Shown here: positions 17,886-41,552 of the stretch, piece by piece
How the letters are laid out: each line of letters starts with the position of its first letter
Position numbering within the stretch: position 1 is the stretch's first letter
NCBI RefSeq assembly: GCF_900108185.1
Contig: NZ_FNVA01000003.1
Span: 124,001 to 188,000 of the forward strand
Length of the DNA stretch: 64,000 bases
Source: Bryocella elongata
GTDB taxonomy: Bacteria; Acidobacteriota; Terriglobia; Terriglobales; Acidobacteriaceae
Reading direction: 5' to 3'
Position numbers and translations under genes: made by a program
Notes under the pieces: model-generated
Seen by the model: the letters and a program-made list of their open reading frames with translations, nothing else
Databases searched by the model: none
What the model was told of the DNA's origin: nothing

Positions 17886-18006
17886 CGTATGGAAGCTCCT
17901 CATCCTGGACAGAGATTTCACTCTATCTATACAGCATGTCGTTGAGCCACATTCCGCCGCGCAGCCTTCGGCGATCGGACGATTGCGAAACGCCCCGACG
18001 CCGGAC

Positions 18007-22257: not shown

Positions 22258-22312
22258 TGGTGTGAGGATTCTATCGTCACACCCCGGCTGCGCGCGGTGA
22301 CGGGATCACAGG

Positions 22313-24169
22313 CTAGGTTGTGGGAGGCGTTTCGCCCAGCAGCTCGGCCTGCTCTTCCGGCGTGAGGTCGGCGATGGCTGCGGCCAGCGCCTCCAGCTCG
22401 CGCTCCACCACCAGAGCATCCAGCCGGGCGGCCAACAGCTTCGGCGTCGGTTCATGGAAGAGCAGGGATGCGGCGATGGCGACGCGGAGCTCCCGGGCAA
22501 GCCGTGATGCCACCTGTGCGCCGCGGAGCGAATCGCCACCGAGCATAAAGAAGTTGTCGTTCCGGCCCACGCGATCAAGCCCGAGGACCTGAGCGATCGT
22601 TGAGGCGACGAGCTCCTCTGTGGAGGTCGTGGGATCTTCATAGGCGATGCCGAGGAAAGCCTCCAGCCTCGCCGCCATGCCGATGCGCTGGATCTTGCCG
22701 GTGGGCCCAAGGGGAATGGCGTCGACCTTCACGACGCGGCTGGGAACCTTGAAGTCGGCGAGCCGTTCCAGGAGGAAGGCACGCAGCTCAGCTTCCGTCA
22801 CCGAGGCGCCGGCATGCAGCACCACAGCCATGGCGACATCTTCGCCGAGCGACGGATGCGCCACCGCAAAGGTGACGGCCTGGCGCACCGCGGGATGGCA
22901 GAGCATCACCTCGTCGATCTTACGGGGAACGATCTTCTCGCCGCCGCGATTGATGAGCTCCTTGAGACGACCCGTAAGGAACAGGTAGCCCTCGGGATCG
23001 AAGTAACCCTGGTCGCCGGTACGAAACCAGCCATTCGTGAAGGCAGCCTCGTTCGCGGAGGGATTGGCTTCGTAGCCACAGGTCACGTTCGTCCCGTGGA
23101 TGCTGACCTCACCCGTCGCGCCTTGGGCGAGCTGGTTGCCCTCTTCATCCAGGATGACGATGCGCGGCCCCGCAGGCAGACCCACCGAGCCGGGCTTCCG
23201 CGCAGCAGGGGGCAGCGGATTGGATGCCATCTGGTGCGCCGCCTCGGTCATGCCGTAGGCCTCGATGACAGGAACGCCAAACGCGTCCTCGAGCCCTGCC
23301 ATGACGGCCGGTGGAAGCGAGGCGGAGGAGGAGCGAATCAATCGCAGGGACTTCGTCCGCAGAGGCGTGGTGCGTGCCACATCAAGGAGCGCCTGGAAGG
23401 CCGTCGGAACGGAGCTGAACCATGTGGGCTGCCAGCGCTCGAGCCATAGCGGGAACTGGTCCGCCCGGAATGGCCCGGTACAGACGCAGCTGCCACCCAC
23501 GCTGAGAGCAGCCAGCATGCAGACGAGCCCATGCACGTGGAACAGGGGCATCGTCGAAAGGCTGACGTCGGCCTCGGTGAGGTGCAACGTCGCGGCGACG
23601 TTGCGAGCGGAGGCGCAGAGGTTCCGGTTGCTGAGCGGCACACGCTTTGGCCGGGACGTCGTACCGGAGGTGTGGAGCAGCAGAGCGACGTCCTCGCTAT
23701 CGCTGAAGTCCAGCAGAGCATCGACGCCCTGAAGAGCATGGCCATCGGCCACCACGCGACCGCCATCCTGCAGGAGAGCGAGCTCGAGGACGGGGATCCC
23801 CAGTGTTTGCGCTGCAGCGCGGGCGGGAGTCTGGAAACCCTTGGGGACCAGCAGGGCCTGCGCGGAGAGATCCTGCAGGTTGAACTGGAACTCGGCGAGA
23901 GAGTAGGCGGGGTTGAGCGGAGCGGCAGCAGCTCCTGAGCTCACAGCGAGGAACGCGACGGCGAGGTCCGGGCTCTGAGGAAAGACCATGGCGACGCGGT
24001 GTTCGCGGCGGATACCCGCTTCGCGCAGATCGCGCAAGACTGTACCGACGTGCTCGCGGAGTCGCCGGTGAGACAGCTCGACTCCGCCGTCTCCCGCGAT
24101 TGCGATGCGCGAACCGAACAGCTCCGCGCTCTGCTTCAACTGACCTTCAAGACTGCTCTGATCCAGCAT
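22313..24169 (-). CDS. Acyl-CoA synthetase-like AMP ligase fused to a peptidyl carrier domain
   Basis: About 618 residues from the Met at 24169; a Met at 24211 would add 14 residues, and neither has a well-spaced Shine-Dalgarno. Residues 1-510 form an ANL-family adenylating enzyme with P loop HTSGTTSRPK (about 166-175), YGMTEAAHQ, and GRLKELINRGGEKI near the hinge. The sequence resembles the Pcs60/AAE3 (oxalyl-CoA synthetase-like) branch more than fatty acyl-AMP ligases. The C-terminal carrier domain has its phosphopantetheine Ser in LGGDSL (about 547). It should activate a carboxylic acid, possibly a small or dicarboxylic one, and load its own carrier. The NRPS gene follows on the same strand after 55 bp, so this protein is the likely loading module. 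The acid is unknown. Confidence 0.88.
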   Translation of the reverse strand: MLDQSSLEGQLKQSAELFGSRIAIAGDGGVELSHRRLREHVGTVLRDLREAGIRREHRVAMVFPQSPDLAVAFLAVSSGAAAAPLNPAYSLAEFQFNLQDLSAQALLVPKGFQTPARAAAQTLGIPVLELALLQDGGRVVADGHALQGVDALLDFSDSEDVALLLHTSGTTSRPKRVPLSNRNLCASARNVAATLHLTEADVSLSTMPLFHVHGLVCMLAALSVGGSCVCTGPFRADQFPLWLERWQPTWFSSVPTAFQALLDVARTTPLRTKSLRLIRSSSASLPPAVMAGLEDAFGVPVIEAYGMTEAAHQMASNPLPPAARKPGSVGLPAGPRIVILDEEGNQLAQGATGEVSIHGTNVTCGYEANPSANEAAFTNGWFRTGDQGYFDPEGYLFLTGRLKELINRGGEKIVPRKIDEVMLCHPAVRQAVTFAVAHPSLGEDVAMAVVLHAGASVTEAELRAFLLERLADFKVPSRVVKVDAIPLGPTGKIQRIGMAARLEAFLGIAYEDPTTSTEELVASTIAQVLGLDRVGRNDNFFMLGGDSLRGAQVASRLARELRVAIAASLLFHEPTPKLLAARLDALVVERELEALAAAIADLTPEEQAELLGETPPTT

Positions 24170-24247
24170 CTGCTCCGGGCCCCAATGGCAAAATCGTCCG
24201 TCTGTGCACATCGCGAGCCGGGTGTATCTGAGGCTACTCTGTGAGGT

Positions 24248-24376
24248 ATGCCTGCGGCAATGTTGCGTCGTGCACTGCTGGCTTCGTTGGCGGCTGCGTC
24301 TTACGGCAGCTGGGCTTCGCAGGCCGCTGGCCTGATCTCACCCGTTGGAGGACTGCTCGATGATTGCTCGGTCTGA
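24248..24376 (+). CDS. Possible 42-residue leader ORF overlapping the PPTase start
   Basis: A short ORF opens at ATG 24248 (second ATG at 24260) and stops 17 bases inside the phosphopantetheinyl transferase gene. The predicted peptide has a basic, Ala/Leu-rich N-terminal part (MLRRALLASLAAASYG) like a secretion signal and ends GGLLDDCSV. The GAGG upstream is too close to the first ATG (1 nt) and rather far from the second (13 nt). It may be a coupling leader, a small exported peptide or chance. It is listed because it fills the divergent promoter gap and overlaps a real start. Confidence 0.25.
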   Translation: MPAAMLRRALLASLAAASYGSWASQAAGLISPVGGLLDDCSV

Positions 24377-25049
24377 CACTGCAGCGGGCACTTCGTTTGA
24401 GCCCTTCAGGTTAACGTCAGCCGCACTCCAGAGGGTCGTTCGGATCGATACTGCTCCGGACAATGGTGTGAGGACAAGCACGTTCAGCAGCCGGGAGCAG
24501 GCGATGCAGCGACGACGCGGCGAGTTTGCTCTGGGCAGGGAGATCGCTGCGCAGCTGCTTGCAGAGCTGGGCAGTGCGGAGACGGCTGTCGGGGTAGCGG
24601 AAGATCGCTCGCCTCTATGGCCCGCTGGCTTCATCGGTTCGATCACTCACACAACGACGTGGTGTGGCGTGGCCGTTGCGCTGCGTGATGAAGTCCGTGG
24701 GATCGGAATCGACATCGAGCGGATGGTAAGTGAGAAGGACTCGGCTGCGGTCTCGGCGGTGTGCCTGAACGCGGCCGAGCGGCGGCTCATCGCGAGCTGT
24801 GCCGACCCTCTGCGGGCCATCACGATCTGCTTTGCTGCGAAGGAGTCACTTTTCAAGTGCCTGAATCCGGTGACGGGCACATGGTTCGACTTTCTCGAGG
24901 CAGAGGTCACGGGCCTCGACATGGAAGGCGGCAATGTTGCATTGCAGCTGCTGCGATCGCTCAATGCCGAATTTCGCGAGGGTTCTGTGTACGCCGCGCG
25001 CTGCAACGTCATCGACAAGCATGTCTTCCTGTCCGTCGAGCTGATGTAA
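24360..25049 (+). CDS. 4'-phosphopantetheinyl transferase (EntD/Sfp-like)
   Basis: The 229-residue protein starts at the ATG at 24360, with GGAGG 9 nt upstream. Family motifs are present: FIGSITHT, then GIGIDIE (about 114-120, Mg-binding Asp and Glu), then FAAKESLFK (about 158-166). The length and layout match the EntD-type cell-associated PPTases. It transfers the phosphopantetheine arm of CoA to the Ser of carrier domains. Being divergent from the ligase-PCP/NRPS operon and near the acyl-AMP ligase-ACP-reductase gene, it is the obvious activator of all three carriers in the window. A strong hairpin follows the stop codon. Assignment is firm. Confidence 0.93.
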   Translation: MIARSDTAAGTSFEPFRLTSAALQRVVRIDTAPDNGVRTSTFSSREQAMQRRRGEFALGREIAAQLLAELGSAETAVGVAEDRSPLWPAGFIGSITHTTTWCGVAVALRDEVRGIGIDIERMVSEKDSAAVSAVCLNAAERRLIASCADPLRAITICFAAKESLFKCLNPVTGTWFDFLEAEVTGLDMEGGNVALQLLRSLNAEFREGSVYAARCNVIDKHVFLSVELM

Positions 25050-27278: not shown

Positions 27279-28670
27279 CTAGACGCCGGCGGGCACAGGT
27301 TCAGGCTCACGCGTGACCGCGGCAGCCGGTTTGAAGCTCATGCGGATGCCGTTCTTCGGGCGGAGGATGACCATGGCGCGCTCTTCGATGTCCTGCCCGG
27401 GGGCCAGTACGAAGTCGTACCGGCGCAGCAGCGTGCTCAGGATCATGAGGATCTGGAGCATCGCGTACTGGTTGCCGATGCAGATGCGCGGGCCGCCGCC
27501 GAAGGGCAGGTAGGTGAACGGCGTGCGCAGCTTGTCGTTCTCTTTGGCCATGCGCTCAGGCCGAAACTCTTCAGGACTGTCCCAGCGGCTCTTCGCATGG
27601 TGTGCGCCGTAGACGTAGACGATGACCATCGCCCCTGCGGGAATGACGGTATCGCCGATGCGGTCTTCGTTGATCGCCATGCGGTCGACCATCCAGAACG
27701 GCGGATAGAGCCGCAGCGCCTCGGCGATGACCTGCGAGGTGTACGGGAACTTCATGACATCGCCATGGGTGAGCAGGTTGTCGCCCAGGACCGCGTAGAA
27801 CTCCTCGCGCACGCGGGCGAGGCACTCGGGATGCTGACTCATGAGGTAGAGGAGCCATGAGAGGCCGTTGGACGAGGTCTCGTGTCCGGCGACGAGCAGC
27901 TGCATGCTCTCGCTGAGGACCAACTCATCGGTCATGCCTTCGCCGTCGGCGTAGCGTGCATCCATCAGGCTTTGCAGCATGTCGCTGCCGGGCGGCTGGT
28001 GGCGACGCTGCTTGATGATCTCGAGCAGCACGTTGTCCGCGCTGACGCGCATATCTTCGTGCTTCTTCAGCTCTCCTGAGGCCGCGAACCAAGGATTCAG
28101 ATAGGGTTGCAGCGTCTGGCGGACGATGAACTCCTGCACGGTGCAGATGGTGTGGCTGACGAGATCGATGTCCTTGCGGTCCAGCTTGGCGCCAAAGAGC
28201 GACCGCGCCACCATCGCGAAGGTCATCTCCATCAGCTGCGGATAGATGTCGACCGGCCCAGCCTGGATGCGGCGGTCGAACTCGGCCATGGAGGCGTCGA
28301 GCGAGTCCTGCATGATGGCCGTGAGGGCGTCGAGTTGCTTGCGGTCGAAGCCCTTCTGGATGAGGCGGCGCTGGTCGCGCCAGGGCTGGCCTTCGGTCGT
28401 CAGCAGGCCCTTGCCGAGGAAGTGGCCCATGCGCTTCACCTGGATCTCGGACTTCTGGTAGTTCTCGGCGTTGGTCTTCAGCACGTGCTGAATGACGGCC
28501 GGATCGATCGTGACGATCGCTTCCTTGAGGCCGCCGAGATAGAACCGGAAGGTGTCGCCAAACTCCTCGGTATAGGTCTGAAGGACCGTGACGGGATTGC
28601 GCGCGATCGCGGGCGAATCCTTGAAGGAGCGGAAGCGGGAGACTGCTGGTATGGATGCGGACAACGTCAC
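27279..28670 (-). CDS. Cytochrome P450
   Basis: The 463-residue P450 has the I-helix oxygen-binding motif AGHETSS (about 261-267), the ExxR motif EALR (about 317-320), PERM of the meander, and the heme-binding loop FGGGPRICIG with the thiolate Cys at about 397. The sequence type is close to bacterial enzymes related to the CYP102 and CYP4 branches, many of which hydroxylate fatty acids. No reductase or ferredoxin is fused or adjacent, so electrons must come from elsewhere. GAGG sits 1 nt before the GTG at 28670 and 7 nt before a TTG at 28664, so the TTG may be the true start. The desaturase gene lies 119 nt upstream on the same strand, suggesting they act on the same lipid. Confidence 0.93.
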   Translation of the reverse strand: MTLSASIPAVSRFRSFKDSPAIARNPVTVLQTYTEEFGDTFRFYLGGLKEAIVTIDPAVIQHVLKTNAENYQKSEIQVKRMGHFLGKGLLTTEGQPWRDQRRLIQKGFDRKQLDALTAIMQDSLDASMAEFDRRIQAGPVDIYPQLMEMTFAMVARSLFGAKLDRKDIDLVSHTICTVQEFIVRQTLQPYLNPWFAASGELKKHEDMRVSADNVLLEIIKQRRHQPPGSDMLQSLMDARYADGEGMTDELVLSESMQLLVAGHETSSNGLSWLLYLMSQHPECLARVREEFYAVLGDNLLTHGDVMKFPYTSQVIAEALRLYPPFWMVDRMAINEDRIGDTVIPAGAMVIVYVYGAHHAKSRWDSPEEFRPERMAKENDKLRTPFTYLPFGGGPRICIGNQYAMLQILMILSTLLRRYDFVLAPGQDIEERAMVILRPKNGIRMSFKPAAAVTREPEPVPAGV

Positions 28671-28789: not shown

Positions 28790-29941
28790 TCAGGACCAGG
28801 TTCCGTCGCCCAGTTGCTTCAAAAGTATCAGGTGATGCCAGATCGCGCGCGTCATGGTGGGGTGCTGGCGGTAGGGCACATTGAACTCGGCTGCGGTCTC
28901 CTTCACGATCTTCGTGAGCGGAGCGTAGTGCGTGTGGCAGACGAACGGGCAGAGGTGGTGGACGACGTGATGGTTGAGGCCACCGGTCAACCAGCCGACC
29001 ATGGGGCTGGTCGTGGCGTAATCGGCCGTCGTCGCGAAGATGTGGTACACCCCGTTCTCGAACTCGTTGCGGCCCTCGGGGAAGTAGGTGCTGTCCACCG
29101 TGTGGGTCGTCTGGAAGACCAGCGCCACACTCAAGCCGACGATCAGGTGCACCATCAGGAACGCTCCGGCGACTACCAACATCGGCATGTGCAGGAGGAG
29201 CACCGGGAGAACCAGCATGTACGTGAGGTAGAAGGCTTTGCCGGCGAACAGGATGACGTACTCGCGGGCCGGGTGCCTGGTGCGGGTCAGGTAATCGTGC
29301 TCGGGCTTGAAGAAGCACTCGAAGTCTCGGACAAAGACGTAATCGAGCGAGAACACCGCGTACAGGAAGAGCGCGTAGATGTGCTGGAAGCGCTGCAGGG
29401 GCCGGAGCGGCTCGTGGGGCGTAAACCGGAGCAGGCCGCGTCCCGTCAGAGCATCGTCCTCCCCGTGCACATTGACGCACGAGTGGTGGCCACGATGATG
29501 CAGGATCCGCCACATATACGAGTTGATCCCACACACATCGAAGACGTAGTTGAGCGCCTTGTTCACGGTCGCGGTGGAGGAGATGGCGTTGTGGTTGCTG
29601 TCGTGCGCGATATTCAGCAGGAGGAAGGTCTGGGCAAGCCCACCGAGAAGATAGAGAGCCAGAAACGAGGGCGTTGCGGGGTGAATCGCGTAGATCGCGA
29701 CCCAGCTGCCAGCGAGCACCGCCAGGCCGACGCCGATCTTGATCCACATGGCGCTATTGGCTTTAGGCGAGAGGTTCTGGTCGGCGAAGTAGCGATCAAG
29801 GCGGCGACGGAGCACCTTGGGGAACGATGGATCGCCCGCAAGATAGACGCTCTCCGGCAGGGTCTCGTGGGAAACGAGGTCTTCCACGGCAGCGTTCGAA
29901 GCAATCGGGGTGCCAATGGGGGAAGTCACTGCCTGGGACAT
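28790..29941 (-). CDS. Membrane fatty acid desaturase
   Basis: The ATG at 29941 has GGAG about 10 nt upstream and gives 383 residues. The three histidine boxes of the di-iron membrane desaturase/hydroxylase family are present: HDSNH (113-117), HHRGHH (148-153) and NHHVVHH (323-329). Hydrophobic segments for about four transmembrane passes lie between them. The third box has His rather than Gln, unlike typical front-end enzymes with a fused cytochrome b5, and no b5 domain is present. It should insert a double bond (or another di-iron modification) in a lipid-bound or carrier-bound acyl chain. Divergent from the acyl-AMP ligase gene and followed by a P450 gene, it is a good candidate for tailoring the acyl group handled by that megasynthase. 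Confidence 0.92.
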   Translation of the reverse strand: MSQAVTSPIGTPIASNAAVEDLVSHETLPESVYLAGDPSFPKVLRRRLDRYFADQNLSPKANSAMWIKIGVGLAVLAGSWVAIYAIHPATPSFLALYLLGGLAQTFLLLNIAHDSNHNAISSTATVNKALNYVFDVCGINSYMWRILHHRGHHSCVNVHGEDDALTGRGLLRFTPHEPLRPLQRFQHIYALFLYAVFSLDYVFVRDFECFFKPEHDYLTRTRHPAREYVILFAGKAFYLTYMLVLPVLLLHMPMLVVAGAFLMVHLIVGLSVALVFQTTHTVDSTYFPEGRNEFENGVYHIFATTADYATTSPMVGWLTGGLNHHVVHHLCPFVCHTHYAPLTKIVKETAAEFNVPYRQHPTMTRAIWHHLILLKQLGDGTWS

Positions 29942-30473
29942 TACGGCCGTCTCCACAATCCTGTTGAAGGTTCTTCTGATTCCCGGTCCGGGCTACGAGT
30001 ATTCTGTGCAATCAGCGGCCGGGGCGCAGCCAACCGTGGCCTGCAAGTGCTGATCGTAGCTGGGACGAGGACACGGATCAAGGTGTTTCACCCGGCGGTA
30101 GCGGGGTTTCCCGTTCCGACGAAAGATGGGGCCGGGTATCGGCACGGAGCGCCACAGGCTTGTAGCCTTTGATCTTGCCTCTGCTAGCATGGTCGGATAC
30201 TGCACACGAATGGAGTGGCTCAAACCGCATCCGGAAACCCCGGAACCCGTCCGGCCGTCTGCTTTGTTTTCATCCGCAACTTGTTCGCCGCGGACACGAC
30301 GGAAGATGCGAACCGAGTCCATTCCGTCCGTTTGTCCGATCCGGATTTGCCTGCATCCCCGTCTTTGTTCGACTCTGTAGGGAGATGCCGTGGGCTCTGG
30401 AAGCAGCGAAACACTGCAAGACTTCGGTTCAGGTATACCTATTCAACGCTCGAAGGGGCTTAGCTGATCTACT
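29942..30473. promoter_or_regulatory. Divergent promoter region between desaturase and acyl-AMP ligase genes
   Basis: The 532-bp gap separates two divergent genes and must hold both promoters. No ORF in it has a credible start or composition. It contains a nested inverted repeat at 30090-30137 (ACCCGGC with GCCGGGT, enclosing CGGGG-TTT-CCCG). I found no convincing -35/-10 pair. Confidence 0.5.
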
Positions 30474-33400
30474 ATGGCGTCGATTTTAGATGAACTGGAC
30501 CGGCTGGGAGAGGAGCAACCACATAAGCTCCTGTTCTCCTATCTCGATCTGAACGGCAACACGCTCGAGAGCTACACGTATGCCTCGTTCCTGGCGCGCA
30601 CCAAGGCGATCGCCGGCCACCTGCTGAAGGATGGCCGCTTCGTGGCGGAAGATCGTCTGCTTCTGGCATACCCTGCTGGTCTTGAGATGATCTGCGCGTT
30701 CTTCGGATGCATCCGCGCGGGATTAATTCCTGTGCCGGTGTACCCGCCGAGCTCCCGCGGCTTCCAGAGTGCGCTCTACAAAATGGTGCACATCGCCAAG
30801 GACTGCCAGGCTGCCGGGGTGCTGACCAGCAGCGAATACCATGCGTCGCTGAAGATCAACATGGCTCGCAGCGGCGTTGCGACCTCTGGCGTGGATATCG
30901 ACTACATCTCCGGGATGCCGTGGATCGTGACCGAGACGTTTGAAGACCTCGTCCCGGGCGCCACCTATCCGGCCCCCGCGAAGATCCTGTTCCTGCAGTA
31001 CACGTCCGGCTCCACGATGGAGCCCAAGGGCGTGATGGTGACGCACGAGAACATCGTGCGCACGGCCCCGCTGGTCATTGACCATTCGTCGCCGGTGATT
31101 GTCTCCTGGCTGCCGCAGTACCACGACATGGGCCTGATCGGTTGCTACCTCTACCCGGCCCTGCGTGGCGGAACCACCTACGGCTTCTCGCCGACGGACT
31201 TTATCCAGCGCCCCGTGCTTTGGTTCGAAACCATCAGCACCTATAAGGCGACCCACACGGCTGCTCCCAACTTCGCCTATGAGTACTGCCTCCGCGCAGG
31301 ACGCATTCCGAAGGAGAGCATGGAGCTGTGCGACCTGAGCACGCTGCATGTGCTGATGTGCGCCGCCGAGCCCGTGAAGGCGGACACCTATACCCGCTTC
31401 CTCGAGGCGTTCCAGCCCTACGGACTCAAGGCCGAGGCCTTCTACGCAGCCTATGGGCTGGCGGAGAATACGCTGGCGGTCTCGCTGGAGGGCCGCAGGA
31501 TCATCGCGGTCAGCAAGCAGGCACTGGCCATGGGCCGGGCGCGGCTCACGACCGAGGTCTCCGAGATCACTTCGTCCGCGCAGGTCGTGAGCTGCGGCAG
31601 GACGCTGCCCGGCATGGATGTTCGCATCGTCGAGCCCGAGCTCCACAAGGTGCTGCCGGACGGCGGTATCGGCGAGATCTGGATCGCGGGCCTCGGCAAG
31701 TGTGCGGGCTACTGGAACAACCCCGAGCTGACGCTGAAGCAGTTCCGCGCGCGACTGACCGACGACACACCGTACGATGATGGCTTCCTCCGCACCGGCG
31801 ATATGGGCTTCTTCCATGAGGGCGAGCTGTACGTCTGCGGCCGCATCAAGGACATGATCATCCTGCGCGGACAGAACTACTATCCGCAGGACATCGAAGG
31901 CGTGGTGGAGCGGGCGTCTCCGCTGATCCGCGCGCATTGCGTGGCAGCGTTCCAGATCCACGAGGAGAGCGAACCTGCGCTGGCTATCGTCGCCGAAGTC
32001 AAGAACCCGTCGCAGATTCCCGACGCGCGCAAGATCGCCCAGGCGGTGCGTAACTTCCTCAACGTCGAAGTCGCGCTGATCTCCTTCATCGCGCCGCGTG
32101 CGATTCCGCGCACCAGCTCCGGCAAGATCATGCGCCACAAGGCCAAGCAGCTGTGGGTGGCAGGTGAGTTCAAGGTCCTGAACGAGTTCTCGCGCGAGAA
32201 GGATGCCGGAGCCTCTTCGGCTGGCTTTGAAAAGCAGACGCCGTTCGATGAACTCAAGGCTCGCTACAACCTGACGGGCAATGAGACTTACAACCTCGTC
32301 GACGCTGGGCTGGACTCTCTTGACCTCGTGGTCTTCATGCATGAGATCAAGGAGCTGCTGAAAGACAAGGGCGCCGATGTGCTGGCGCGGCAGGTCGATA
32401 TCGGCGTCATCCAGCGGGTGAGCGTGGCCGAGCTGTTCCAGCTCGCGGAGCACCTGGAGAGCGCGCCCGAAGAGGCGATCGAGCATCTTCGTCAGTCGCT
32501 GCACGTCTTCCGTGAAGAGCAGCGCGAGACCGAGCGCAGGATGATGAGCGAAGATCGCAAGCTCGTCTTCGATCCTCCCGCACCGCTCCCGGTTCCAGTG
32601 GTGCCAGAGTCGCATCACATCCTGCTGACCGGCGGTACCGGCTTCATTGGGCCATTCCTGATCAAGAGCCTGCTGGAGCAGACGCGCGCGAAGATCTACG
32701 TTCTCGTGCGCGCCTCGGATGACGAGCAGGGCAGGCAGCGTCTGCGCGGCGCGATGGAGTCCATGGGCCCGTGCAGCCATTCGCTGATGCAGATGTTCGA
32801 ATCGCGTGTGACGCCGTTGTGCGGTGATCTGAGCCAGCAGAATCTTGGCCTCGCCGCCGATGCGTGGGACTTCCTCGCGAGCGAGTGCGACACGATCTAT
32901 CACAACGGCGCCACGGTGAACTACCTGTTCAACTACGACCGCATGCGCGACGCGAACGTGATGGGGACGAACGAAGTCCTGCGGCTCGCCTTTGAAGGCC
33001 GCGCGAAGGAGTTCAACTACGTTTCGACGACGTTCGTCTTCGGCTGGGCGGTGAAGGACGTGCTGTGGGAGACGGACTTCAACGAAGATCTGGAGCTGCT
33101 GGACTTTGGCTACAGCCAGACGAAGTGGGTCGCAGAGCAGGTGGTCGCAGATGCCCGCGCCAAGGGGCTTTCGACGCGCATCTTCCGCCCAGCTCTCGTC
33201 AGCCCGTCGGTCGATGGCGGAGGCAATAACTTCGACATTGCGGTGCGGCTGGTGGCCTTCATGGTGAACCACGGCATCGGTGTGGATGCGTTGAACCAGG
33301 TGAGCTTTGTGCCGGCGGACATCGTCGCGAACAACATCGTGTCGATCTCCAACTCGGCAGGCACGGCCGGCAAGACGTACCACATCGTGCGCGACGACTA

Positions 33401-33746
33401 CGCGAACATGATGGACATCACCAACCTGATCACAAAGTCGACCGGGAGGCAGTTCGATATCTTCGCCGTGAATGACTTCGTGCCGGAACTGATCCGCCGC
33501 TGCCGCAAGGAGGACCTGCTGTTCCCGCTGCTGGACTTCCTCGTCGGCTCGGTGGACAACATCACGGGGATGGAGTTCAAGCGCTACGACAACTCGACCT
33601 ACCAGGCAGCCCGCGATGCTTCAAAGTGGGGACAGCCGGATCCTCCGCTCGACGATGTGGTGAACGGCATCCTGAAGTTCATGCACCGCAAGGGCATCAT
33701 TTCGGTCGCGCCGCGTGAGGTCGATGCAGCGGTTCCTGCGGACTGA
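30474..33746 (+). CDS. Fatty acyl-AMP ligase / acyl carrier / thioester reductase megasynthase
   Basis: The 1090-residue protein has three domains. Residues 1 to about 580 form a fatty acyl-AMP ligase with PPSSRGFQ, the P loop QYTSGSTMEPKG (about 175-186), and GRIKDMIILRGQNYYPQDIE, typical of FAALs rather than CoA ligases. A carrier domain (about 590-680) has its Ser in AGLDSLDL (Ser615). From about 710 to the end lies an NAD(P)H thioester reductase of the extended SDR type, with TGGTGFIG and a catalytic YSQTK (Tyr880, Lys884). The expected chemistry is fatty acid to acyl-AMP to acyl-ACP to aldehyde, or on to alcohol. The layout parallels carboxylic acid reductases but with a FAAL front end. 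A desaturase, a P450 and an MMPL exporter flank it. No good Shine-Dalgarno is visible before the ATG. Confidence 0.92.
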   Translation: MASILDELDRLGEEQPHKLLFSYLDLNGNTLESYTYASFLARTKAIAGHLLKDGRFVAEDRLLLAYPAGLEMICAFFGCIRAGLIPVPVYPPSSRGFQSALYKMVHIAKDCQAAGVLTSSEYHASLKINMARSGVATSGVDIDYISGMPWIVTETFEDLVPGATYPAPAKILFLQYTSGSTMEPKGVMVTHENIVRTAPLVIDHSSPVIVSWLPQYHDMGLIGCYLYPALRGGTTYGFSPTDFIQRPVLWFETISTYKATHTAAPNFAYEYCLRAGRIPKESMELCDLSTLHVLMCAAEPVKADTYTRFLEAFQPYGLKAEAFYAAYGLAENTLAVSLEGRRIIAVSKQALAMGRARLTTEVSEITSSAQVVSCGRTLPGMDVRIVEPELHKVLPDGGIGEIWIAGLGKCAGYWNNPELTLKQFRARLTDDTPYDDGFLRTGDMGFFHEGELYVCGRIKDMIILRGQNYYPQDIEGVVERASPLIRAHCVAAFQIHEESEPALAIVAEVKNPSQIPDARKIAQAVRNFLNVEVALISFIAPRAIPRTSSGKIMRHKAKQLWVAGEFKVLNEFSREKDAGASSAGFEKQTPFDELKARYNLTGNETYNLVDAGLDSLDLVVFMHEIKELLKDKGADVLARQVDIGVIQRVSVAELFQLAEHLESAPEEAIEHLRQSLHVFREEQRETERRMMSEDRKLVFDPPAPLPVPVVPESHHILLTGGTGFIGPFLIKSLLEQTRAKIYVLVRASDDEQGRQRLRGAMESMGPCSHSLMQMFESRVTPLCGDLSQQNLGLAADAWDFLASECDTIYHNGATVNYLFNYDRMRDANVMGTNEVLRLAFEGRAKEFNYVSTTFVFGWAVKDVLWETDFNEDLELLDFGYSQTKWVAEQVVADARAKGLSTRIFRPALVSPSVDGGGNNFDIAVRLVAFMVNHGIGVDALNQVSFVPADIVANNIVSISNSAGTAGKTYHIVRDDYANMMDITNLITKSTGRQFDIFAVNDFVPELIRRCRKEDLLFPLLDFLVGSVDNITGMEFKRYDNSTYQAARDASKWGQPDPPLDDVVNGILKFMHRKGIISVAPREVDAAVPAD

Positions 33747-33847: not shown

Positions 33848-34663
33848 CTACTTCTTCTGAAAGACAAGCTTCTCCGTGAAGTGCTGACCGGTCTCGAGCG
33901 AACCCGTGCTCGTAACCGTCATGGTCCTTCCGTCCGGCGTTACTGCCCAGCGGTCTTTCTGCGTAGGCTGTTGATCGCGGCGATAGGTCGCGTCCACGGT
34001 GTGTGCGTCGGGTTGCGCCAGCTGCACGGTGTCGTTGCGCGAGTTTCTGAGGTCGTACGGCTTGCCGTCGAAGTGCGCGGTGTAGCTGTAGTCGCCTTCG
34101 AAGTGCACACCATCCCCGCCTACGGCGGAGATCGTCAGGGTCATGCCCTGCCGCATGCGGGTCTTGCTTACATCCTGAGTCCAGTCTCCGGCGAAGGGAT
34201 CGGGAGCCTGTTTCGCGGCCTTCGCGCGCGTCCAGACCGAGATCTGGTCGGGATGCCCGGGGCGCGAGGTGGTCAGTGTCAACTCGCTGCCATCCTTCGA
34301 CAGGCCATTGCGAATCGTCGAAACGACCGTGCCGTTCTTCTTTTCGATGACCTCGACCTGCTTCCTGTTGATGCGGTGAAGCTGGACCTGATCGAAGGCG
34401 GGATTGGCGGCGACGGGTGACTGCTTCCCGTTGGCCTGGGTGGTGAAGTCGAGATGCGTCTCGCCGGTCATGATGACGTGCACCATCTCTTTCGTGGAGA
34501 CGATGGTGAGCTTGTCGGGAGGCGTGAGCGTCGAATCGGCAGAGACCAGCGTCCATGCGCCGATGCGAGGATCAGCTGCGAAGGCCGGGGACGCCGTAAG
34601 CAGGCCGAGGAACGCGCCGATGGCGAGGCTGAGGATCGAGGTTCTGGTCGTGTTGGGGTTCAT
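33848..34663 (-). CDS. Secreted protein of unknown function with an internal duplication
   Basis: About 271 residues from the ATG at 34663, starting with a clear signal peptide (TSILSLAIGAFLGLL, cleavage near AFAAD). Two similar halves follow, each about 110 residues. The first starts IGAWTLVSADST and the second FAGDWTQDVSKT. Each later has an FDGK- or NGK-like turn, a DxVQL element and a strand of the type DGxxLTxTxxG. This looks like a pair of small beta-barrel or lipocalin-like domains; related repeats occur in secreted Acidobacteriota proteins. I cannot assign a function. Its place between the acyl-AMP ligase gene and the MMPL gene raises the possibility of lipid binding, but the gene is on the opposite strand and this is only a guess. 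Confidence 0.75.
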   Translation of the reverse strand: MNPNTTRTSILSLAIGAFLGLLTASPAFAADPRIGAWTLVSADSTLTPPDKLTIVSTKEMVHVIMTGETHLDFTTQANGKQSPVAANPAFDQVQLHRINRKQVEVIEKKNGTVVSTIRNGLSKDGSELTLTTSRPGHPDQISVWTRAKAAKQAPDPFAGDWTQDVSKTRMRQGMTLTISAVGGDGVHFEGDYSYTAHFDGKPYDLRNSRNDTVQLAQPDAHTVDATYRRDQQPTQKDRWAVTPDGRTMTVTSTGSLETGQHFTEKLVFQKK

Positions 34664-34897
34664 CGCGGTTGTCACAAACTGTAGGATGCTGCCTCCTGAA
34701 CCGCCGCGCGGTTTCCACAATGTAGCAGACCTGCATGAGCTCAAAGCGTGAGGCGCAACACGGTGTATCCTGACGACGATACGAAGCGTGAGGGCCCGCT
34801 TCGGTTGCCCGTCGCGAACGCGATTCGCCCTCTGTAGTCTTGTACCAATCCGGTCGCCGTCTCAGACCTTGAACGTGCGACCCCCTTGTCGACCATC

Positions 34898-37150
34898 ATG
34901 AGTTTCAAGCCATCGCGACGCATCTGGGCCGCCGGCGCCGTCTTCGCGGGCGTCCTCGCGCTGCTCCCGTTTTCCTTCCACTCTGAGCGTCATCTCGAGA
35001 CCGCCACGCGCGTGGAAGGGAGCGATGCCCAGACCGTCGTGCAGGAGCTGAAGACACGCTTTCGCTCGCCGTTCGTAGACCAGGTGGTGGTGGTCGTCCA
35101 GGGGCTGCCGGCCGCCGATACCGATGAAGGCGCACAGGCGCTGACGGCCATCGTGAACGGCTTGAAGGACCAGCCGGGCGTCTCCGGCATCGTCTCGTAC
35201 CTCGACCTGCATGACTCCATCTTCCTGGGCAAAGGGGGCGGGACCTACGTGGTGCTGGGACTCGCGTCGCCGGATGGCCCGGTCGAGAACCTGGTGCCTG
35301 CGATCTCCGCGCAGTCGCGTTCGCTGGCGAACCAGCTCCGGCCACGCTACCCGAAGATCAGCCTGGAGCTGACCGGCGAGATCCCGCTGAACTTCGACAT
35401 CCGCAAGGCCAGCGCGGATGAGGTGCAACGCAGCGAAAGCCTGGTGATCCCGGCGACACTGGCGCTGCTGCTGCTGGCCTTCGGCAGCCTGGTCGCCGCG
35501 CTGATTCCGCTGGCCGTGGGACAGCTCGCCATTGCGACGACGCTGGCGATTGCTTCCCTTCTGGCCGCGCGCTTTCACCTCTCCATCCTGGTGCAGAACC
35601 TGGCCACGATGCTGGGGCTGGGGCTGGGCATCGACTACACATTGCTCATGGTGAGCCGCTTCCGAGAGGCTGTCGCGGCAGGCAACGACGGGCCCACGGC
35701 GGCGGCCATTGCCGCGCGGCGCGCGGGGCGCACGCTGCTGATTTCGGCTTCGACCGTGGCGATTGGCTTCGTTGCGCTGCTCACCGTGCCCATCAGCGAG
35801 ATTCGCTCCATCGGCGTCGCGGGATGTCTCGTGGCCGCGACGAGCGTACTGCTCGCCAACACGTTAGTGCCCGCCGTGCTTGCGCTCCTGGGCCGACGCA
35901 TCGATTTATGCCGCCTGCCGTTCAAGCCGAAGCTGGATGAGTGCGCTTCGGAGCGCGTGGGCAAAAAGTGGCGGAGCTGGGGCCGGGGCATTGTGGCGCA
36001 TCCGTGGCTGGCGATGCTCTTTGCCGGGCTTCCGATGCTGGCGCTGGCGTGGCAGGCTACCAAGCTCGACACGAGCCTGCCGAAGGGCGACTGGCTGCCG
36101 AAGGCGGCCGAGTCCGTGCACGCGCTGCACACGCTGGAGCAGATGGATCGGGCGGGCATCGTGCAGTCGATGCGCGTCATCGTAGAGTTGCCGAGCCAGG
36201 CTCACGAGTCGATCTCCGAGAGCGATGCAGGCTGGGCCGCGATCGACAAGGCCAGCAAGACGCTGGCGAGCGATCCTCGGAGTGAGCGGGTGATCTCGCT
36301 GACGACGGTTGCGGGCGGTGACCGGAGTTTCCTGACCGATGTCTCCCGCGACACGCGGCGGACGTTTCTCAGCAGCGATGGTCACGCTGCGCTGATCGAG
36401 GTGCTGCCGAAGACTTCGGTCACTCTGCGGGAGCAGGTGGACTGGGTGCGCGAGGTGCGGAGGTCGGGCGGCGAGGCGCTGACCGGAGTACCCGGAACCA
36501 CGCTGCTGATCGGGGGAATCCCCGCGCTGAACGGCGACTATCAGACGATCATTGAGAAGCGTTTCCTTCCGGTGATGGAGCTGGTGGTGGCCGGGACGCT
36601 GCTGGCACTCCTGGCGGGCTTCCGCTCGATCTTCGCAGCGATAAAGGCGATCCTGCTGAACCTGCTCTCGGTGGCCGCGTCGTTTGGGGCGCTGGTATTG
36701 GTTTTTCAGAAGGGGTTTGGCAGTGGGATGCTGGGGGTGCCGGGTGGGACGGGGAGCGTCTTTCCGCTTGTGCCGATCGTGACGTTTGCGATCACCTTCG
36801 GGCTGAGCATGGACTACGAGGTCTTCCTGGTGGCGCGGGTGCTGGAGGCCCGGCGCAGCGGGCTGAGCGAGGATGAGGCTATTCCCGAGGCTCTGGCTCG
36901 TACAGCGGGGCTGATTACGAGCGCGGCGGCGATCATGATCGTGGTCTTCGCGGCGTTTACCTTCGGCAACTTCCTGGTGGTGAAGATGATCGGGTTCACG
37001 CTGGCGGTCGCGGTGCTGATCGACGCGACGCTGGTGCGGATGGTGATTGGGCCGGCGCTGCTGTGCGTCGCGGGCGACTGGAACTGGTGGCCAGGTGGGC
37101 TGGCAAAGGTCAAGGCCGCGCCGGAGAAATCGCTGGCTCCCGGAGATTGA
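34898..37150 (+). CDS. MMPL/RND-superfamily lipid exporter
   Basis: About 750 residues from the ATG at 34898 (a TTG 12 nt upstream is possible). The protein has the duplicated RND layout: one N-terminal helix, an extracytoplasmic domain, a block of about five to six helices with GLGLGIDYTLLMVSRFREA, a second extracytoplasmic domain, and a second helix block with FGLSMDYEVFLVARVLEA. The paired GxxxDY motifs in the TM4 and TM10 equivalents carry the proton-relay Asp of MMPL proteins. With about 750 residues it is MMPL/YdfJ-sized, not AcrB-sized. MMPL proteins export lipids and lipopeptides, often from loci that also encode FAALs. It is therefore the likely exporter for the product of the neighbouring megasynthase, though this is inference from position. 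Confidence 0.9.
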   Translation: MSFKPSRRIWAAGAVFAGVLALLPFSFHSERHLETATRVEGSDAQTVVQELKTRFRSPFVDQVVVVVQGLPAADTDEGAQALTAIVNGLKDQPGVSGIVSYLDLHDSIFLGKGGGTYVVLGLASPDGPVENLVPAISAQSRSLANQLRPRYPKISLELTGEIPLNFDIRKASADEVQRSESLVIPATLALLLLAFGSLVAALIPLAVGQLAIATTLAIASLLAARFHLSILVQNLATMLGLGLGIDYTLLMVSRFREAVAAGNDGPTAAAIAARRAGRTLLISASTVAIGFVALLTVPISEIRSIGVAGCLVAATSVLLANTLVPAVLALLGRRIDLCRLPFKPKLDECASERVGKKWRSWGRGIVAHPWLAMLFAGLPMLALAWQATKLDTSLPKGDWLPKAAESVHALHTLEQMDRAGIVQSMRVIVELPSQAHESISESDAGWAAIDKASKTLASDPRSERVISLTTVAGGDRSFLTDVSRDTRRTFLSSDGHAALIEVLPKTSVTLREQVDWVREVRRSGGEALTGVPGTTLLIGGIPALNGDYQTIIEKRFLPVMELVVAGTLLALLAGFRSIFAAIKAILLNLLSVAASFGALVLVFQKGFGSGMLGVPGGTGSVFPLVPIVTFAITFGLSMDYEVFLVARVLEARRSGLSEDEAIPEALARTAGLITSAAAIMIVVFAAFTFGNFLVVKMIGFTLAVAVLIDATLVRMVIGPALLCVAGDWNWWPGGLAKVKAAPEKSLAPGD

Positions 37151-37368: not shown

Positions 37369-40134
37369 ATGCGACTTTCCTGCGCCGCCGCCATGATTGC
37401 GGCGATGACACTTCCCTGCGTTCTGCATTCAGCCGCTGCGCAGACCGCGTGTGCCACGGGCGCGCCGCTCGCGGGCCTGGTGCGCGATACGACCCTGGCG
37501 ATTATCCCCGGGGCATCGGTGCAGGTGGATGGCGGCAAGGCTGTCACCTCCGGCTCGGACGGCCGTTACCGCTTCCCTTGCGTTGCGCCCGGGAAGCATA
37601 CGTTGCATGTGACGGCCGACAGCTTCGCCGTGCTGGACATGGCCGTGACGACGCCGCGCCCGGCGGAGTTGAACCTGACCCTGCAGCCGGGGGATGTGAA
37701 GACCACCGTCGATGTTTCCACCGACGCCGAGGAGATTGAGCAGCCCTCTGCGACATCGACGGGCGCCTCGAAGACCATCACCAGCAAGCAGCTTTCGACG
37801 CTGGCGGATGATCCGGACGACCTGTTGCGGGAGCTGCAGCAACTTTCGGCGGCGTCCGGTGGATCGCCCTCAGCGGCGACCGTAGCCGTGGATGGCTTCG
37901 ACAATGGTGAGGGCGGAACGCATCTTCCGCCGAAGTCGTCGATCGCGTACATCAAGGTGAATCCGGACCTGTTCTCGGCGGAGTACCGCAACCCGCCGTT
38001 CGGCGGCGGACGCATTGAGATCTATACGAAGCCGGGGCAGTCGACCTTTCACGGGGCGCTGTTCATGACGAACTCCAGCTCTTTTATGAATGCGCGCGAT
38101 CCTTTCTCGACGGCTCCCGCTTCGCTGGGCAAGCAGCGGTATGGATTCGAGCTGACGGGGCCGATCCGGAAGAAGGGTTCGGACTTCTTTACGTCGCTGG
38201 AGCATCGCGACATCTCGAACGCTGCCGTGGTGAACGCTGTTGGCGTGAACGCCGCGGGAGTGCAGACTCCGATTCTGCAGACGGTAGCGGCTCCGCAGCA
38301 CATGTTCATCGGCAACCTGAAGACGGACTGGCAGCTGGGCGAGAAGAACACGCTGATTGCGAGCTTCGACCACTGGAGCAACGATCGGCCGAACTTCAAC
38401 GTGGGCGGAACGAATCTGCCGGAGAACGGCTACGACAACAGCCAGTATGACGAGAACTTGCACCTGGCGCTGGTGACGACGATCTCGCCGAAGATCATGC
38501 ACGAGGGCCGGATCGGCATGGAGTGGGACGGGTATACCTACGCGCCCAACTCGACGGCCCCGCAGGTTTCGGTTGCGGGAGCGTTCACGGGCGGAGGATC
38601 GGCGCTGGGAGCGGCGCATGAGCACGAGATCTGGTCATCGATCATCGACGACATCATCATCCAGACGAAGAACCACCTGATCAAGGTGGGCATTCAACCG
38701 GAGTTCGTGCACCTCAACACGTATTCGCCGACGAACTTCAACGGGGTTTACACGTTTGGCGGCGGGACGACCTCCACCGGCCAGACGCTGACGGGAATCC
38801 AGCAGTATGTGAACGCGCTGAACGGCGCGGCGAATGGTTCGCCGACCAGCTTCAACAACACGACGGGCAGCCCGTACGTGGAGGTGTTCCAGTTCCGCAA
38901 TGCGTTGTTCGTGCAGGACGACTGGAACATCCGGCCCAACGTTCATTTCTCGTCGGGTGTGCGGTACTACGTGCAGGAGAAGCCTTCCATCACGGCGGCG
39001 GTGCAGCCGCGCTTCGGGTTCTCCTATACGCCGGACAAGAAGGCGACGTGGAACCTGCATGCCCATGCCGGTATGTTTGCAGGCCGCTGGGGAGCGCATG
39101 GATGGGAGTCGATGGTGTTCTACAACGGCACGGACCGCAGCGTGAACACGGTTTATACGCCGACGTGCGCGGGAGCGTTCGACCCCACCACGTGCCAGCC
39201 TTTGAGCACAGGCAGCGTGATCCGCTCGGTGCGGACGCTGCAGCCGGGTTTCCGAGAGACCTACTGGTCGATGGAGAACCTCGGCTTCAGCAAGACGCTG
39301 CCGCAGAAGTTCACTCTCAGCGGCGATTACTACATCACGCAGATGTGGCACTATGCGCGGACGCAGAACATCAACTCGCCGACGAACGACCTGCCCACGG
39401 GGCCGCGGCCTTATGGAGCGAACCTGAACATCCTGCAGATGCAAAGCTCGGGTCGAGGCTATGGCAACGTGGTCTTTGTGGGACTCACGAACCAGTCGCT
39501 GAAGAAGGTGCAGTTCTTTGCGGGTGCGGTGCGCGTGGACATCATCGACAACACGGACGACAACCAGTACTTCACGCCGCAGACCACCGGTGTGACCGCG
39601 GGCGAGTATGCCCGGCGCGATAACCAGGGGCTGTGGCAGATCTTCGGCAACGCCACGGTTCACCTGCCGGAGAAGATCCAGTTCAGCGCCAACTACAACG
39701 GCACAGGGCTGCAGGCTTACAACGTGACCACCGGGTTCGACAACAATGGCGATGGCGACTTCAACGATCGGCCGCAATACGCGGTCGCGGGCACCCCGCT
39801 TTGTTCGGTGAATCCGAAGGCCAGCCCGTGCGGCTACAACACGCCATGGGGAGAGCTTGTGGCTTCGGGTGGCGTGGGTTCGCTTTCACGCGACAAGGGT
39901 GAGATGCCGTGGACGTTCTTCCTCGACACGAACCTGCAGCGGACGTTCAACCTGACCAAGAACACGAAGGCCGATCATCCGCAGACGCTGATGGTGAACC
40001 TTCGCAGCTCAAACGTGCTGAACCATCTGAACGCTTCGGCGGTGGGTTCGGTGCTGGGCTCTCCGAACTTCGGGCAAGCGTACGCGGCGAACCCGGGACG
40101 CCGCGTTGAAGTGGGGCTGCGGTACAGCTTCTAG
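37369..40134 (+). CDS. TonB-dependent receptor-like outer membrane protein
   Basis: The 921-residue protein has a signal peptide (cleavage near SAAAQTAC), a carboxypeptidase-regulatory-like domain (PLAGLVRDTTLAIIPGASVQ, DGRYRFPCV), a plug region (about 110-230, with VAVDGFDNGEG) and a beta-barrel ending VEVGLRYSF with the terminal Phe expected of outer membrane barrels. GAGGA precedes the ATG by about 5 nt. It belongs to the same broad family as the larger receptor on the other strand but is about 380 residues shorter. It follows the MMPL gene by 218 bp on the same strand and could bring in, or release, a compound made by the lipid cluster, though nutrient uptake is equally likely. A terminator hairpin follows. 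Confidence 0.9.
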   Translation: MRLSCAAAMIAAMTLPCVLHSAAAQTACATGAPLAGLVRDTTLAIIPGASVQVDGGKAVTSGSDGRYRFPCVAPGKHTLHVTADSFAVLDMAVTTPRPAELNLTLQPGDVKTTVDVSTDAEEIEQPSATSTGASKTITSKQLSTLADDPDDLLRELQQLSAASGGSPSAATVAVDGFDNGEGGTHLPPKSSIAYIKVNPDLFSAEYRNPPFGGGRIEIYTKPGQSTFHGALFMTNSSSFMNARDPFSTAPASLGKQRYGFELTGPIRKKGSDFFTSLEHRDISNAAVVNAVGVNAAGVQTPILQTVAAPQHMFIGNLKTDWQLGEKNTLIASFDHWSNDRPNFNVGGTNLPENGYDNSQYDENLHLALVTTISPKIMHEGRIGMEWDGYTYAPNSTAPQVSVAGAFTGGGSALGAAHEHEIWSSIIDDIIIQTKNHLIKVGIQPEFVHLNTYSPTNFNGVYTFGGGTTSTGQTLTGIQQYVNALNGAANGSPTSFNNTTGSPYVEVFQFRNALFVQDDWNIRPNVHFSSGVRYYVQEKPSITAAVQPRFGFSYTPDKKATWNLHAHAGMFAGRWGAHGWESMVFYNGTDRSVNTVYTPTCAGAFDPTTCQPLSTGSVIRSVRTLQPGFRETYWSMENLGFSKTLPQKFTLSGDYYITQMWHYARTQNINSPTNDLPTGPRPYGANLNILQMQSSGRGYGNVVFVGLTNQSLKKVQFFAGAVRVDIIDNTDDNQYFTPQTTGVTAGEYARRDNQGLWQIFGNATVHLPEKIQFSANYNGTGLQAYNVTTGFDNNGDGDFNDRPQYAVAGTPLCSVNPKASPCGYNTPWGELVASGGVGSLSRDKGEMPWTFFLDTNLQRTFNLTKNTKADHPQTLMVNLRSSNVLNHLNASAVGSVLGSPNFGQAYAANPGRRVEVGLRYSF

Positions 40135-40309: not shown

Positions 40310-41374
40310 TCAGGACGTCAACGCGCGCAGGTCTTCCACCAGCGCGGTCACTCGCTCGGGTGAGCTATCCCACGCGAACATGAAGCGGGCACCGCCGCCG
40401 ATGAAGGTATAGAACAGCCAACCGCGCGCGCGGAGGCCTTCTGCGATCTCGCTAGGCAGTGTGAGGAAGACTGCATTGGCCTGCGCCTTGAACATGAGCT
40501 TGATACCAGGGAGCGATTCGACGCGATGCGCGAAGTCCTGCGCGCACGCGTTGGCATGCGAGGCATGGCGAAGCCAGGCACCACTCTCCAGCATCGCGAC
40601 CCAGGGCGCGGCGAGGAAGCGCATCTTCGAGGCGAGTTGGCCTGCCTGCTTGCAGCGATAGTCGAAGTCTTCAGCGAGCTTCGTATCGAAGAAGATGACG
40701 GCCTCGCCGACGGCCATGCCGTTCTTCGTGCCGCCGAAGCACAGCACGTCGACGCCGGCCTTCCATGTCATCTCCGCAGGGGAGCAGCCGAGCGAAGCGC
40801 AGGCGTTGGCGAAGCGGGCGCCATCCATATGCAGCTTGAGTCCGAGGCTGCGGCACTCGGCGGAGATCGCATGGATCTCGTCGAGGGTATACAGCTCGCC
40901 GGTTTCCGTGGGCTGCGTGATGGTGACGGCGCGGGGCTTCGGGTAGTGGATGTCGGTGCGCTTGAGCGCGATGGAGCGGATGGCTTCGGGCGTGAGCTTG
41001 CCGTTGGAGGAAGGCGCGACGAGGAGCTTGGAGCCATTGGAGAAGAACTCCGGCGCGCCGCATTCGTCGGTCTCGACGTGGGCCGACTCCGAGCAGATGA
41101 CGCTGTGATAGCTCTGGCAGAGTGACGCCAGAGCGAGCGAGTTGGCAGCGGTGCCATTGAAGGCGAAGAAGACCTCGCAGGGAGTTTCGAAGAGGGTGCG
41201 GAACGCCTCCGAGGCGCGCGCGGTCCACTGATCGCCACCGTATGCGGGCTCATGGCCGCTGTTGGCCTCGTTCATCGCGGCCCACGCTTCGGGACACACT
41301 CCGGCGTAGTTATCGCTGGCAAATTGCTGGGGCTGCTGCATGGATTGGGTCCAAGCCTTTCGTTCGTCAATCAT
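40310..41374 (-). CDS. ltaE: Low-specificity L-threonine aldolase-like PLP enzyme
   Basis: About 354 residues from the Met at 41374; the longer frame to 41548 adds a segment without family character. The fold is the fold-type I beta-eliminating lyase/threonine aldolase type. The N-terminal FASDNYAG is the typical start, with EVFFAFNGTAAN next, LHMDGARFANA carrying the PLP-contacting Asp, and FGGTKNGM carrying the Schiff-base Lys. The enzyme splits L-threonine or L-allo-threonine to glycine and acetaldehyde. The gene is isolated, with a terminator on each side. No strong Shine-Dalgarno was found, and a Met at MQQPQQ is another possible start. Confidence 0.9.
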   Translation of the reverse strand: MIDERKAWTQSMQQPQQFASDNYAGVCPEAWAAMNEANSGHEPAYGGDQWTARASEAFRTLFETPCEVFFAFNGTAANSLALASLCQSYHSVICSESAHVETDECGAPEFFSNGSKLLVAPSSNGKLTPEAIRSIALKRTDIHYPKPRAVTITQPTETGELYTLDEIHAISAECRSLGLKLHMDGARFANACASLGCSPAEMTWKAGVDVLCFGGTKNGMAVGEAVIFFDTKLAEDFDYRCKQAGQLASKMRFLAAPWVAMLESGAWLRHASHANACAQDFAHRVESLPGIKLMFKAQANAVFLTLPSEIAEGLRARGWLFYTFIGGGARFMFAWDSSPERVTALVEDLRALTS

Positions 41375-41552
41375 CAAGAACTGCTCGCTAACTTCTCGTT
41401 GGGAGCGTTCGGTGACGCGCGGCTGGAACCCGAGGTTTGCCGGATCGGCCACATCTCCCGGAGCGGGACGCCACCTTGCCCGGGAGCAGGTTGGCGTTGG
41501 GCATGCAGCCCAACTCTTGATGTCATTTCTAGGATAGCCGAAGGCCACTGAT

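Follow-up and report, generated by a model that had tools for sequence, protein, structure and literature searches.

What does a single polypeptide that joins a fatty acyl-AMP ligase (FAAL), an acyl carrier protein (ACP) and a thioester reductase (TR) produce in an acidobacterium, and which of the adjoining genes act with it? The question is raised by a 64,000-nucleotide stretch of the Bryocella elongata genome (assembly GCF_900108185.1, contig NZ_FNVA01000003.1, positions 124,001 to 188,000 of the forward strand), here called the window, which encodes such a FAAL-ACP-TR megasynthase. Comparison with related loci shows that the genes for a cytochrome P450, a desaturase, the megasynthase, a conserved protein that we designate U298 and an MMPL transporter form a sharply bounded five-gene cassette. 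Judging from the families of its products, we give a probability of about 0.58 to the reading that this cassette encodes a self-contained pathway to an exported, oxidized fatty alcohol or aldehyde. In window coordinates its features are as follows.

27279..28670, minus strand: cytochrome P450 of 463 aa (PF00067, 7.3e-84)
28790..29956, minus strand: membrane fatty acid desaturase of 388 aa (PF00487, 7.9e-27) with three His boxes
30474..33746, plus strand: FAAL-ACP-thioester reductase megasynthase, a single chain of 1090 aa
30480..32189, plus strand: fatty acyl-AMP ligase domain of the megasynthase, approximately residues 3-572, as placed by its best PDB matches
32235..32462, plus strand: carrier domain, approximately residues 588-663, with the phosphopantetheine Ser615 at 32316-32318
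32616..33602, plus strand: thioester reductase domain, residues 715-1043, with Tyr880 at 33111-33113, Lys884 at 33123-33125, and Ala907
33848..34744, minus strand: U298, a conserved protein encoded between the megasynthase and the MMPL gene, which may start at the ATG at 34663 (271 aa)
34886..37150, plus strand: MMPL/RND-type (resistance-nodulation-division) transporter of 754 aa (PF03176, 1.9e-73; 247.7 bits versus a cut-off of 20.5)

The limits of the cassette emerge from a scan of public species genomes, which yielded 220 pattern matches and 164 relatives, the best 80 loci of which were analyzed. Forty-eight of these, with megasynthases at least 72% identical to that of the window, constitute the acidobacterial group, and 31 at 47-56% constitute the outer group; one acidobacterial fragment of 74% identity (L104) was excluded from both. 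In the 49 loci made up of the acidobacterial group and the window, with open reading frames (ORFs) identified by means of a simple rule on composition and many loci ending at contig edges, the only ORF clusters present in at least four are the megasynthase (49), the desaturase (43), the MMPL protein (42), the P450 (41) and U298 (40). Where at least 3.5 kb of sequence is available upstream of the megasynthase, both the P450 and the desaturase are found (34 of 34 acidobacterial loci). Downstream, U298 and the MMPL gene accompany it in 35 of the 36 loci with at least 3.7 kb, the exception (L050) having no U298 match, and all five genes are present in each of the 27 loci that extend far enough in both directions. 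Some of these loci are closely related, so that the counts do not represent independent events. By their record titles, carriers of the cassette include Granulicella, Edaphobacter lichenicola and Terracidiphilus gabretensis. One locus is titled Verrucomicrobia (L071) although its megasynthase is 86% identical; the title is probably wrong and the contig acidobacterial. In four loci (L051, L053, L068 and L069) the megasynthase and U298 stand apart with other genes between them, and those inserted in the first three have no common theme; the insertion in L053 (6995-13627) includes genes for a spermine-synthase-like protein and an FkbM methyltransferase.

The five genes are also linked across genomes. 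In a survey of 298 genomes drawn from the order to which the window genome belongs, the megasynthase was found at E<=1e-60 in 50, of which 40 have orthologs of at least 70% identity and 10, at 31-41%, were set aside. The P450 was retrieved in 39 genomes at E<=1e-130, and U298 in 61 at E<=1e-10, with a best match of at least 51% in 41 and of at most 31% in 20, a division into orthologs and others that was chosen after the gap was visible. The megasynthase coincides with the P450 in 38 genomes and with U298 in 39 (Fisher p ~1e-44 for co-occurrence, kinship being ignored). Pairwise divergences of the five genes are correlated in all ten pairs (r of 0.54-0.82 over 26-39 loci each, with 0 of 999 permutations as high for each pair), most tightly for the MMPL protein with U298 (r 0.816). 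No P450 passes the threshold in two genomes (G211 and G235), but the loci with agreeing match coordinates (L061 and L048) end inside a P450. A further genome, 84% complete (G295), has no megasynthase, and its P450 and its U298-MMPL pair sit at the ends of two contigs.

The megasynthase matches AMP-binding PF00501 (residues 14-414), the DIP2-like AMP C-domain PF23024 (460-568) and NAD_binding_4 PF07993 (718-955). Its adenylation domain is nearer to FAALs than to CoA ligases: FadD32, FadD23, FadD28 and 3kxw score 166-318 bits against it, versus 74-90 for 4-coumarate, malonyl and FadD13 CoA ligases. The best PDB matches of residues 1-575 are 7r7e (named a polyketide synthase; aligned over 3-572 with 347 bits), 3kxw, FadD32 and FadD23. 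Residues 340-372, which we take to be the place of the FAAL-specific insertion, show no large gap in the alignment to 7r7e; of the CoA-ligase alignments some, though not all, begin only at about residue 373. The carrier appears to be a divergent one. A Pfam search of the megasynthase gave no PF00550 match at E 1e-3, and the assignment is based on a GLDSL motif of the DSL type with an invariant Ser615, the position in the chain and a modeled helix (615-631) that begins at Ser615, as in carrier domains; the AlphaFold model has a mean pLDDT (predicted local distance difference test) of 79 with 33 sequences, and of about 60-75 locally. The reductase domain, with its Y-x3-K and TGGTGF-x-G motifs, scores 239.6 bits against the NCBIfam thioester reductase model TIGR01746 (cut-off 213.35), and the closest solved reductase domain in the PDB is the terminal reductase of myxalamid MxaA (4u7w, E 7.6e-52). 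In its own pathway MxaA terminates a polyketide/peptide assembly line, with an alcohol as the product. The GC content at third codon positions is 0.80-0.87 in the five cassette genes and 0.62 in an antisense ORF at 30723-33383, and this codon composition supports the called strands.

Of the partners, the P450 displays the motif FGGGPRICIG at 390, with the heme ligand Cys397, and an AGHET I-helix motif; it is one of two PF00067 proteins in the window genome, and CYP4B1 is among the structures nearest to it. The His boxes of the desaturase are HDSNH at 118, HHRGHH at 153 and HHVVHH at 329, and no sequence relative of it was retrieved from the PDB at E 0.1. U298, whose N terminus looks signal-like when judged by eye, reaches no Pfam cut-off; its structure model suggests a fatty-acid-binding-protein-like (FABP-like) β-barrel. 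As a putative inner-membrane lipid pump of the MMPL/RND type, the MMPL protein resembles MmpL3, HpnN and BstA, and it is below the equivalog cut-offs of each (241.5 versus 1400, 61.1 versus 751.85 and 22.8 versus 1400 bits, respectively). Between the divergent genes no sigma-70-like promoter was found by consensus; there is one terminator-like site, where 0.7 would be expected by chance.

The original prediction, made from the letters of this DNA, had described FAAL, carrier and reductase domains in one chain with Ser615, Tyr880 and Lys884, and these residues are as it stated and do not vary in any of 71 aligned homologs, each longer than 1000 residues, a set made up of 42 acidobacterial sequences, that of the window among them, and 29 more. 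The divergently encoded P450 and three-His-box desaturase are likewise confirmed by their Pfam matches, their motifs and their position on the minus strand. An MMPL gene was said to lie just downstream; it does lie downstream, but the conserved U298 gene, which had been overlooked, intervenes on the opposite strand. Lack of synteny in related genomes had been named as grounds for abandoning the prediction, and the synteny search recovered the complete cassette in all 27 acidobacterial loci with room for it.

On the basis of these families, the FAAL domain would adenylate a free fatty acid and load it onto Ser615 of its own carrier. The desaturase would add a double bond, and the P450 would hydroxylate or epoxidize the chain, either on the carrier or just before or after its residence there. 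The C-terminal reductase would cleave the thioester using NADPH, after which the MMPL pump may extract the product and an exported, FABP-like U298 may carry it through the periplasm. As to the released product, one comparison is with the carboxylic acid reductases (A-T-R), which have the same order of adenylation, carrier and reductase domains and from which the megasynthase differs by its FAAL-type adenylation domain; against the carboxylic acid reductase model NF041592 it scores 134.5 bits (cut-off 1300), and its Ala907 faces their Asp998. This aspartate reportedly restricts those enzymes to aldehydes. Residue 907 is Ala in 69 of the 71 homologs, Ser in one and Gly in one, so that an alcohol would be at least as likely as an aldehyde; the replacement of Asp by Ala907 weakly hints at release of a fatty alcohol.

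Relatives of the megasynthase extend beyond the phylum. The 31 outer loci are titled Bacteroidota, Gemmatimonadota, Verrucomicrobiota, Calditrichota and Planctomycetota, plus one Acidobacteriota, and 19 of them contain a P450 of at least 35% identity. Among 27 non-acidobacterial genomes with the megasynthase that were searched in full, 22 have a P450 at E<=1e-40; 18 of these have no second such match, and 20 have one of at least 38% identity; in four Saprospirales-type genomes it is on a contig separate from that of the megasynthase-linked desaturase. Desaturases of 43-48% identity occur inside nine outer loci, from Saprospiraceae, Cytophagales and related Bacteroidota. Further genes that recur in the outer loci, with families assigned from one to three representatives per cluster (two for the first), code for a phosphopantetheinyl transferase (PPTase; 10 loci), a PF13469 sulfotransferase (9), a second, DesA-like desaturase (9) and a 249-residue protein with no Pfam match (9). 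Sulfotransferases adjoin megasynthase relatives of Flavobacteriales (L098:14608-15696), Verrucomicrobiota (L100:15290-16402) and Saprospiraceae (L086:8823-9941). A sulfated product in the window organism is rejected, its genome having no PF13469 match (2 of 14 control genomes matched). Around five P450s situated away from the megasynthase (loci L128-L132, one of them only 4.4 kb long) no second gene family is shared at E 1e-8. We tentatively suggest, as a possibility that we regard as somewhat doubtful, that the acidobacterial cassette is one form of a so far undescribed trans-phylum pathway to secreted oxidized fatty alcohols of the diol or hydroxy-alkenol type. Its ancient core would be the megasynthase and a dedicated P450, to which individual lineages would have joined the desaturase and the MMPL-U298 pair as modules; a sulfotransferase would be a further addition in some Bacteroidota and in a Verrucomicrobiota, where fatty alcohol sulfates would result.

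Several findings weigh against the proposed pathway and its extension to other phyla. Neither a redox partner for the P450 nor a PPTase recurs in the cassette over the 49 loci; the Foldseek matches of the U298 model are weak (best E 2.9e-4, TM 0.28); and the permutation and Fisher values ignore phylogeny. Five of the 27 non-acidobacterial genomes have no P450 at E<=1e-40, and in two genomes (G301 and G302) the best reaches only 35% and 32%. The desaturase is not universal: 7 of the 27 genomes yield none at E<=1e-15, and in Flavobacteriales the desaturases linked to the megasynthase have an identity of only 30-34%, are no nearer than other desaturases of the same genomes and are not clearly orthologous. 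One genome (G043, locus L133) has the MMPL and U298 genes beside ftsQ/ftsA/ftsZ without the cassette enzymes, and in another (G113, locus L136) the cassette keeps two short U298 fragments only, between the megasynthase and the MMPL gene, which together indicate that the link to export is not absolute. The MMPL-U298 pair could accordingly be an independent envelope system that merely adjoins a lipid pathway, as the solitary pair and the failure to see a match to either protein in the 31 outer loci would suggest, but its position downstream of the megasynthase in all but one of the 36 acidobacterial loci that extend far enough, and the presence of the megasynthase in 39 of the 41 genomes with a U298 ortholog, make this unlikely.

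Other readings give the released chain a different fate. If release stopped after two electrons, a fatty aldehyde might pass to a transaminase, an aldolase or a P450 deformylase and yield an amine, an amino-alcohol or a hydrocarbon. Insect CYP4G enzymes deformylate aldehydes. The proximity of CYP4B1 to the cassette P450 would fit such a route, as would a pyridoxal phosphate (PLP) enzyme of the β-eliminating lyase/threonine aldolase kind encoded at 40310-41548, and thioester reductases are described as aldehyde-forming in a review (PMC10947199). Yet no sixth gene recurs in at least four of the 49 loci, the aldolase-like gene was matched in none of the other cassette loci, and residue 907 is Asp in none of the homologs; we consider this route rather improbable. 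The original prediction had named ether lipids among the possible fates, and precursor supply for ether or membrane-spanning lipids could be imagined in the manner of ElbD, which functions in ether lipid synthesis in Myxococcus xanthus and likewise combines acyl activation, carrier and reductase-like domains acting on fatty acids in one polypeptide. ElbD-like clusters have been reported from sponge-associated Acidobacteriota (PMC9426513). In ElbD, as PMC9131029 describes it, an N-terminal reductase-like domain precedes the ligase, the carrier and an acyltransferase-like domain, and the partner genes are others. The reductase of the megasynthase is at the opposite, C-terminal end and no acyltransferase domain was found in any of the five cassette proteins (no search aimed at further enzymes of ether-lipid synthesis was made), so identity with ElbD is rejected. 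Moreover, no more than 40 of the 298 genomes surveyed in the order have the megasynthase, which argues against a core membrane lipid, and we regard an ether-lipid role as very unlikely. What survives of the predicted function is its general outline, namely, one unit, as synteny and co-occurrence suggest, of a kind suited to activating a fatty chain, modifying it, releasing it by reduction and exporting it; the ether-lipid fate in its ElbD form does not. A search for a wax ester enzyme gave no WS/DGAT match in the window genome, yet no control genome matched either.

The remaining alternative concerns the surroundings of the cassette in the window. At 18007-25049 is a small separate nonribosomal peptide synthetase (NRPS) locus. 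Its products are an NRPS of 1416 aa with condensation, adenylation, peptidyl carrier protein (PCP) and thioesterase domains, a 632-aa adenylation-PCP protein whose adenylation domain is FadD7-like, and a 234-aa PPTase of the Sfp type. Next to it, at 14137-18134, are the genes for a LuxR-type response regulator and for a histidine kinase that carries two-component-regulator propeller repeats. Two large outer-membrane β-barrel proteins (OMP_b-brl_4, carboxypeptidase-regulatory domain) are encoded on either side, at 9960-13871 and 37369-40134, and there are no tRNA genes within the window as insertion sites. The megasynthase could belong to a larger lipopeptide pathway with these NRPS genes, which are about 5-12 kb from it, and PPTase-type genes stand beside its relatives in 10 of the 31 outer loci. 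Nevertheless, the NRPS, adenylation-PCP and PPTase genes cluster with no ORF of the 48 other acidobacterial loci, which reach at most 10 kb and cover the NRPS position in part; the loci L038 and L071 (85-86% identity) have none of these three genes within the sequence covered; and the reductase itself already releases the chain. As far as the loci reach, this lack of clustering leads us to set aside an NRPS partnership as highly improbable; the neighboring PPTase may nonetheless serve the megasynthase carrier.

The cassette also differs from the jamABC alkyne cassette and the polyyne clusters, in which a FAAL, a carrier and desaturases similarly act together. Those systems encode the FAAL, the desaturase and the ACP in separate genes, whereas here a reductase is fused to the FAAL and carrier and there is one desaturase. 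Polyyne clusters, such as those for caryoynencin and protegencin, contain a FAAL, a carrier, three desaturases, a thioesterase and a rubredoxin, and some variants of these systems have a P450 (PMC8406139). The single desaturase, together with the absence of a thioesterase or rubredoxin among the five recurring genes, leads us to reject a polyyne cluster.

We judge the gene set to be new and built from known kinds of enzymes; no description of it was found in the open-licence PMC literature, and other papers may exist. It is a sharply bounded, recurring lipid gene set of a common soil phylum, with a core common to genomes titled as six phyla, and it may lead to a lipid class absent from the literature searched and to a putative export route that combines an MMPL protein with a FABP-like one. 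Should the trans-phylum pathway suggested above prove real, bacteria would make hydroxylated long-chain alcohols or diols by way of it.

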